Below, piece by piece: positions 1 to 321 of a stretch of DNA of 37,579 bases (position 1 is its first letter; every line of letters begins with the position of its first letter). Origin of the DNA: Syntrophaceae bacterium (GTDB lineage: Bacteria > Desulfobacterota > BSN033 > UBA1163). The translations under genes and the position numbers were made by a program. The notes under the pieces are model-generated. The model saw only the letters and a program-made list of their open reading frames with translations. It had not been told where the DNA came from and did no database searches. Location: NCBI GenBank assembly GCA_013388635.1, contig JACAEX010000065.1:1-37579 (forward strand), given 5' to 3'.

Positions 1-60
1 ACTCGAACCAACATAAAATTTATCTGTGCCTTCACTATACAAAATATAAACACAGGCCAT
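1..60 (-). CDS. GIY-YIG nuclease family protein, N-terminal 20 codons only (runs off the window)
   Basis: An ATG at 60 on the minus strand opens a frame that stays open to the window edge. The 20 visible residues contain VYIL followed ten residues later by YVGS, which is the GIY-YIG signature as found in small UvrC-like/YhbQ-like nucleases; the catalytic Arg and Glu would lie outside the window. No convincing Shine-Dalgarno precedes the ATG. The upstream DNA instead looks like part of a tRNA-Ser. Small free-standing GIY-YIG proteins of this type are common in uncultured bacterial genomes and their role is unsettled (repair or selfish nuclease). Identification rests on one short motif, so it is tentative. 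Confidence 0.6.
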   Translation of the reverse strand, partial: MACVYILYSEGTDKFYVGSS

Positions 61-80
61 CTTGAACCACTCTTACCAAG

Positions 81-158
81 ACCGGTTTTTCCGCCAAAGG
101 CGGACCCGCCTCTGGCGGCGGGCAAGACCGCCGCCTTAAACCACTCGGCCATCCCTCC
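81..158 (-). pseudogene. tRNA-Ser-like 5' half interrupted in the anticodon loop
   Basis: Read on the minus strand from 158, the sequence gives a class II tRNA start: acceptor strand GGAGGGA, then T8, a D-arm with GCCGAGTGG, and an anticodon 5' stem ending GCGGTCTTG. In a normal tRNA-Ser(UGA) this would continue AAAACC. Here a 32-base double palindrome (91-122) intervenes, then AAAAACCGG resumes the 3' side of the anticodon stem. No proper T-arm or 3' acceptor strand follows; the GIY-YIG start codon lies about 20 bases further on. It is either a broken tRNA-Ser or a 5' fragment captured by a mobile element. A functional tRNA is unlikely as it stands. Confidence 0.5.
91..122. repeat. GC-rich double palindrome inside the tRNA-Ser-like sequence
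   Basis: Two consecutive hairpins, CCGCC-AAA-GGCGG and CCGCC-TCT-GGCGG, are joined by two bases and followed by CGGG. The block sits exactly within the predicted anticodon loop. It resembles the short GC-rich palindromes scattered in many uncultured bacterial genomes; a related one with different sequence occurs at 23065-23083. Confidence 0.65.
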
Positions 159-187: not shown

Positions 188-234
188 CCTCACCCCTCAA
201 TCAACCACATTATAGATGGCGGAGAGAGAGGGAT
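188..234. repeat. 47-bp direct repeat, copy 1 (carries 18 bp of the tRNA-Ser 3' end)
   Basis: This block is identical over 47 bp to 322-368. Its last 18 bases (217-234) reproduce the CCA end, acceptor 3' strand and part of the T-stem of the intact tRNA-Ser. The two copies are 134 bp apart. The DNA between holds small GC-rich inverted repeats (around 265-285 and 295-310) but no gene. Confidence 0.8.
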
Positions 235-321
235 GTGCTCAGTCGCTTCGCTCCTTCCGCCTCCCCCGCCTCCGGCGAGGTCGCCGAACCCAATCCTGCT
301 TACGCAGGAAGGGTTCTCATC

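Follow-up and report, generated by a model that had tools for sequence, protein, structure and literature searches.

A small GIY-YIG nuclease gene in the anticodon arm of tRNA genes as a probable intron-less homing element

The start of a small GIY-YIG nuclease gene adjoins half of a tRNA-Ser(UGA) gene at one end of the window, the whole 37,579-nucleotide stretch of DNA that was analysed, and the arrangement probably represents an intron-less homing-type mobile element which consists of one small GIY-YIG gene, is lodged in a tRNA gene at the anticodon arm and restores a complete tRNA. The window (G000:C18:1-37579) is the entire contig C18 of a bacterial genome of 3.4 Mb in 106 contigs (G000), and its position 1 is an assembly end.

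Organization of the locus

All parts of the arrangement in the window lie on the minus strand. The tRNA-Ser(UGA) 5′ half, nucleotides 1-36 up to the anticodon loop, is found at positions 123-158 as a non-functional left copy and is identical in 36/36 positions to the intact gene at G000:C20:33-119. It is followed, within the anticodon loop, by a 32-bp double GC palindrome (91-122) that interrupts the anticodon arm between CTTG and AAAACCG; the sequence from 122 to 91 is CCCGCCGCCAGAGGCGGGTCCGCCTTTGGCGG, with its palindromes at 118-106 and 103-91, and comparison of its RNA fold with those of shuffled sequences gives a p of 0.01. The anticodon loop and the 3′ side of the stem are then resumed as AAAAACCG (83-90), after which the tRNA homology stops, and the nuclease gene begins with an ATG at position 60, its first 20 codons (1-60) being present before it is truncated by the contig end. 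The ORF, MACVYILYSEGTDKFYVGSS, shows 80% identity to GIY-YIG proteins (E 9e-4), and its 20 residues are likewise 80% identical to the protein of the related locus L094. Since two loci of related genomes, L046 and L094, can be aligned with the window column by column over the junction, palindrome and ORF, the palindrome occupying the same position, the combination of half tRNA, palindrome, resumption and ORF is, judged from the sequence, more than chance. The parts named in the earlier note, that is, the tRNA-Ser half, the 32-bp double palindrome, the resumed stem and the GIY-YIG start, are confirmed; the segment GTTGGTTCGAGT, which had been read there as resembling a T-arm, encodes the enzyme's conserved YVGSS motif. 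The pattern CCGCCWNWGGCGGDYCCGCC has three matches in the 3.4-Mb genome, every one within a tRNA-Ser half, two of them in the window and one at C20:1777. Also on the minus strand of the window lie an intact tRNA-Ser(GCU) (351-445; ARAGORN, Rfam tRNA 54 bits) and serS, encoding seryl-tRNA synthetase (452-1759; Pfam Seryl_tRNA_N and tRNA-synt_2b).

The intact tRNA-Ser(UGA) at C20:33-119, identified by ARAGORN, is the sole tRNA-Ser(UGA) in the genome. The contig C20 starts with the in-frame last 17 codons of a GIY-YIG gene, RRWIKEKFKFRRDGRVV, which overlap with this tRNA, and the subsequent stop codon falls within it. The complete orthologue in L094 has the C-terminal end GRRWIKESFKRRRDGRVV at the same place relative to its tRNA. 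Because C20 opens with the gene end and the L094 orthologue ends at the same place, C18 and C20 very probably adjoin each other, the assembly gap accounting for about 50 missing codons, and the full structure, with the two contigs joined, would consist of the palindrome-bearing tRNA-Ser 5′ half, the nuclease gene and the whole tRNA-Ser(UGA). An intact tRNA-Ser(UGA) elsewhere, which the earlier note would have counted against its reading, is indeed present, directly behind the nuclease gene.

The serS-linked locus in related genomes

In relatives, serS provides the syntenic anchor for this locus, and by eye a serS 3′ end of similar sequence precedes tRNA-Ser(UGA) in L183, L185, L094 and L046. 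The order of tRNA half, palindrome and GIY-YIG gene, the lack of which in other genomes had been named as the other point against that reading, is identical in L046 and L094, where complete orthologues are followed immediately by an intact tRNA-Ser(UGA), while in a third genome (L127) a contig opens with the 3′ end of the gene, followed by the tRNA. The locus is empty in L183 and L185 from the same family, contains a frameshifted remnant of the nuclease gene with stops in L186 and a pseudo-tRNA scar alone in L187; outside the family, L189-L191 have a tRNA-Ser(UGA) without an insert. The proposed nuclease-associated insertion at the anticodon loop is borne out insofar as the arrangement recurs and a single locus has alleles that are occupied, empty or decayed, but it is not an intron, and behind it a complete tRNA is restored.

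Anticodon loops are nevertheless classic sites of group I introns, and the sole NCBIfam match of the enzyme is to a group I intron endonuclease, below the cut-off of that model, which could point to a degenerate group I intron in the tRNA anticodon loop or to its leftover endonuclease. The complete tRNA that follows makes splicing unnecessary, however, and a permissive Rfam scan of six loci gave no match to a group I intron ribozyme core up to E = 1. This explanation is largely refuted and we give it next to no credence.

The insert in L046 is 344 bp long, with a single ORF, and has direct repeats of about 40 bp on both sides that contain tRNA nucleotides 1-36 and a few bases of the 5′ flank. 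The flank bases (AATTC, AAGAC, ATTTC) are the same in both copies of one genome but different between genomes, which suggests copying between the two tRNA copies of one genome.

The partial and whole tRNA copies could also be viewed as the attL and attR of integrase-borne elements that left remnants at tRNA att sites, with the nuclease as a passenger. Islands in tRNA genes generally duplicate the 3′ end of the tRNA, whereas the duplicated part here is the 5′ half. Furthermore, an insert of a few hundred bases with one ORF leaves no room for an integrase, the same gene family is found at four tRNA types, and no integrase-bearing version was noticed in the loci that were read. In common with such islands, the insert has a complete tRNA copy at one end and a partial one at the other, and the tRNA stays functional (PMC9897764), but unlike in the islands the key enzyme is a nuclease and an integrase is lacking, and we consider an origin of this kind quite improbable.

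Proposed mode of spread

In the homing element that we favour, spread would take place through DNA cleavage at the anticodon arm and repair of the gap. The nuclease would cut a tRNA-Ser(UGA) gene that lacks the element, within its anticodon arm or close to it, and the break would be repaired from an occupied copy via the upstream flank with the tRNA 5′ half and the tRNA 3′ half with the downstream flank. The repair would copy in the palindrome, the nuclease gene and a spare tRNA 5′ half, and the latter would join the 3′ half of the recipient to form a complete functional tRNA directly behind the nuclease gene, with the original 5′ half remaining in front as a pseudo-tRNA. The missing part of the tRNA would be supplied by the element, so that the essential tRNA would survive.

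Among the points against this reading, the intact tRNA adjacent to the gene does not differ in its anticodon arm from that of genomes without the element, and in the window the gene itself is truncated at the contig end, with its continuation on C20 very probable. A rescue tRNA recoded to resist cutting was considered and rejected, as genomes with and without the element have identical stems in the case of Ala and Asp, and an identical arm in that of Ser(UGA); the anticodon stem is not recoded in occupied loci, and a cleavage-resistant tRNA is therefore not the explanation.

Properties of the nuclease

The tRNA-linked proteins score clearly in the GIY-YIG family PF01541 (curated cut-off 22.6 bits), with 45-53 bits for the L094 and L046 orthologues and 62, 65 and 77 bits for the Ala, Asn and Asp types, respectively. 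The VYxL and Y(V/I)G motifs and the residues R28, H32, N33 and E64 are invariant in seven tRNA-linked proteins, and of these the N-terminal motifs alone are visible in the window copy. The proteins are only about 80-90 (81-92) residues long, and no extra DNA-binding domain is recognisable in them besides PF01541 and a weak overlapping T5orf172 match, which is another point against the homing element. The pairwise dN/dS is approximately 0.1 among the Ser-type as well as among the Ala-type genes, and the enzyme is under purifying selection. The closest solved structures by sequence are the UPF0213/YhbQ-like proteins 1ywl (E 1e-12) and 1zg2 (E 2e-10) in the PDB, which are single-domain proteins of unknown role and for which no tRNA-inserted context emerged from this analysis.

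A phage or plasmid vehicle was also considered and rejected: phage records contain no match to the Ser-type protein, viral contigs yielded one weak match to the nuclease, and the six matches in plasmids are below 60% identity and mostly annotated as ordinary GIY-YIG proteins.

Occurrence at other tRNA genes

The genome of the window carries two further such genes, at tRNA-Asn (L014) and tRNA-Ala (L015). In L014, the 5′ half of tRNA-Asn extends into the anticodon arm and is directly followed by the ATG, and the ORF runs into the intact tRNA, where it ends; in L129, from a single-contig genome, the anticodon GTT is the exact point at which the tRNA-Asn breaks off, ahead of the nuclease ATG. The pattern is found again in relatives, at tRNA-Ala(GGC), tRNA-Asn(GUU), tRNA-Asp(GUC) and tRNA-Ser, the loci including two Nitrospirota contigs (L160 and L162), and a narrow search of genome contigs gave 10 loci. 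The earlier suggestion that the element targets tRNA-Ser genes holds in that the Ser locus recurs, but the targeting is not Ser-specific, given the Ala, Asp and Asn clades and one clade beside tmRNA.

Two layouts can be distinguished. Type I consists of a pseudo-tRNA 5′ half, the nuclease gene and the intact tRNA (Ser, and Asn in L014 and L129), and type II of a pseudo 5′ part with the promoter, the intact tRNA, the nuclease gene and a pseudo 3′ part (Ala, Asp and most Asn); in these other nuclease clades the gene is located between the intact tRNA and pseudo-tRNA pieces with a hairpin anticodon arm. At the Ala locus, where the original promoter precedes the pseudo copy, full alleles are found along with clean ones (L166, L168), ones with an upstream scar only (L170, L171) and one with a downstream scar only (L173).

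In the type I loci L046, L094, L129 and L014 the nuclease ORF overlaps the tRNA with its stop codon inside it, and at tRNA-Asn the stop codon lies at the anticodon. With such an overlap, RNase P processing would cut the stop codon off the nuclease message.

The tRNA linkage was assessed with 86 small GIY-YIG genes from 59 relatives that were picked by Pfam family. An intact tRNA lies within 300 bp of 20/86 genes, and the 27 such tRNAs without exception share the strand of the gene; an assumed density of 48 tRNAs per 3.5 Mb corresponds to an expected linkage of about 1%, and none of the 20 UvrC control loci has a tRNA, with p-values for the linkage being indicative only, as related genomes are not independent. 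When the tRNA label is mapped on a tree of 99 GIY-YIG sequences, 12 changes are required compared to 38 with shuffled labels, and in a careful tree the Ala and Asp types each form a single clade (support 96/97 and 98/97, respectively), while single clades for Asn and Ser are not supported. The enzyme clade evidently matches the tRNA type. Counted against the homing element are the 59/99 sampled sequences without a tRNA link, most of which belong to other clades. The Ala clade contains sequences from both Nitrospirota and the phylum of the window; a transfer between the two phyla was considered and set aside, since a single group of the two Nitrospirota sequences is not rejected (p 0.41).

The constant orientation, the same strand in 39/40 tRNA-linked cases, together with the strong purifying selection, the overlap of ORF and tRNA and the tmRNA-linked sister clade, would also fit a host gene that is co-transcribed and works with the tRNA or tmRNA in processing, repair or quality control, the tRNA pieces being ordinary duplications. 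The distribution is patchy, however, with clean empty loci or decayed copies in sister species, the tRNA type is not constant between clades, and an operon gene is not expected inside an anticodon arm with direct repeats. We regard a host function of this sort as unlikely, and the homing element as the better account of these loci.

The tmRNA-linked sister clade (L084, L061 and L045, from three families of the phylum) has its GIY-YIG gene approximately 130-280 bp downstream of the tmRNA, in the order smpB-ssrA-GIY-YIG and on the same strand, and no tmRNA fragments were seen around the gene in these three loci.

Hairpin arms of the pseudo-tRNAs

The anticodon arm of the pseudo-tRNAs regularly takes the form of a hairpin with another sequence. 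The Ala-type arm, GTCGNATCGAC, is the same in both phyla, the Asp and Asn types have a TCCCG...CGGGA arm in which both sides of the stem carry changes, the Ser arm is CCGCC...GGCGG, and some Asn arms are CCTGCC...GGCAGG. Nearly all of 25 hairpin-arm segments, chosen by eye, fold better than shuffled sequences. These arms, which may originate through insertion, through break repair or under selection, may stop the pseudo-copies from acting as tRNAs or from being recut.

It had been supposed that the element carries or spreads GC palindromes. The motif CCGCCNNNGGCGG has 18 sites in the genome against 3 for a reversed control, and 15 of the 18 are outside the tRNA halves of the window and C20; because of this dispersal the CCGCC palindrome is a dispersed family that is not owned by the element. 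As element-specific cargo it is rejected also on account of the other hairpin families that replace it in other lineages, and what is left of the idea is that the pseudo-tRNA arm regularly contains a hairpin of one kind or another.

Hairpin-armed pseudo-tRNAs alongside the gene in several lineages might alternatively be transcribed decoys or antidotes to a toxin-like RNase that cuts the tRNA anticodon. However, the upstream pseudo copies, having neither a T-arm nor a 3′ acceptor strand, are unable to fold as tRNAs, and the solved GIY-YIG structures that match the enzyme (UPF0213, SLX1, I-TevI) belong to DNA nucleases or to proteins whose role is unknown, and none is known as an RNase. A toxin appears very doubtful on these grounds.

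In L038 (686-1309), six tandem 120-bp units precede an intact tRNA-Asn and a GIY-YIG gene, each unit consisting of a promoter and a pseudo-tRNA-Asn 5′ part with a TCCCGCCGATGGCGGGA arm.

Comparison with known systems

By analogy, SegB of the T-even phages would be the nearest in kind to the homing element proposed here. According to PMC13096335 (with Brok-Volchanskaya 2008 cited there), SegB is a free-standing GIY-YIG homing endonuclease of the phage tRNA region which cuts within tRNA genes; also described there are amplification of tandem units of tRNA and nuclease that involves the 5′ end of the tRNA and the 3′ end of the nuclease gene, no tRNA isotype preference in the link between segB and tRNAs in phages, and a proposed inefficient cutting of donor alleles. 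Both systems have a free-standing GIY-YIG gene adjoining tRNA genes, as an ORF of its own outside an intron or intein, and, as would be expected of a free-standing homing endonuclease, occupied and empty alleles are found here at the same site in related genomes; the tandem units are comparable to the pseudo-tRNA arrays described here, such as that in L038. Seg proteins consist of a catalytic domain and a separate DNA-binding region, and the latter is not seen in the present proteins, which suggests an enzyme that works like Seg and is not a member of the Seg family. New with respect to SegB are the chromosomal instead of phage setting, the tiny size of the genes (approximately 81-92 residues), the matching of each clade to one tRNA type, the position inside the anticodon arm with restoration of the tRNA, and the scars in the form of hairpin-armed pseudo-tRNAs.

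Endonucleases of group I introns in tRNA anticodon loops are known from tRNA-fMet (Bonocora and Shub 2001, as cited in PMC3984707), and there, too, the anticodon of an essential tRNA is the site where the nuclease gene is lodged, but the present loci have no ribozyme and have a second complete tRNA copy instead of splicing. No description of chromosomal tRNA-inserted GIY-YIG genes was found in the open literature searched. Tentatively, the loci may represent a distinct chromosomal selfish class, one that breaks an essential single-copy tRNA gene at the anticodon arm and brings along the replacement part, thus cleaving and rescuing without splicing, has hairpin arms built in and regularly renewed, and comprises lineages that are each devoted to one tRNA or tmRNA and extend across phyla, a possibility to which we give less than even weight.

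If the proposed mechanism holds, small bacterial homing elements would live as parasites in the best-conserved part of essential tRNA genes and would avoid lethality by rebuilding the tRNA, not by splicing or with an integrase. It would account for partial tRNA copies and tandem pseudo-tRNA arrays, which annotation pipelines can misread, and would offer a natural model for cleave-and-rescue drives, as well as a source of small nucleases with directly testable specificity, each of them apparently paired with a single tRNA.

Additional features of the locus

The contig break at window positions 1-12, where the sequence ends at ...GGTTCGAGT, has a counterpart in G006:C116 (L127, 1-14), which begins at TCGAGTAGAG, and the breaks of two separate assemblies fall at the same point of the orthologous gene. 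A further tRNA-Ser 5′ half, with a palindrome at the identical anticodon-loop position, is located on C20 (L009:1734-1814) about 40 bp before an intact tRNA-Ser(CGA); it differs from the 5′ half of that tRNA, has no nuclease gene and is possibly the scar of a lost element.

Behind tRNA-Ser(GCU), positions 217-318 of the window (minus strand) contain what is probably a pseudo-tRNA-Ser 3′ remnant with inserted hairpins, the assignment resting partly on inference; positions 217-265 are 94% identical to a remnant of the same kind at C20:186-236, and in both the T-arm is broken between GGTTCG and ATCC. The T-arm of these remnants (window 217-318 and L009:186-236) is split by a segment containing GGCGGAAGGAGCGAAGCGACTGAGCAC, and with similar T-arm-splitting segments in L094, L183, L185 and L187 it looks like another recurrent insert.
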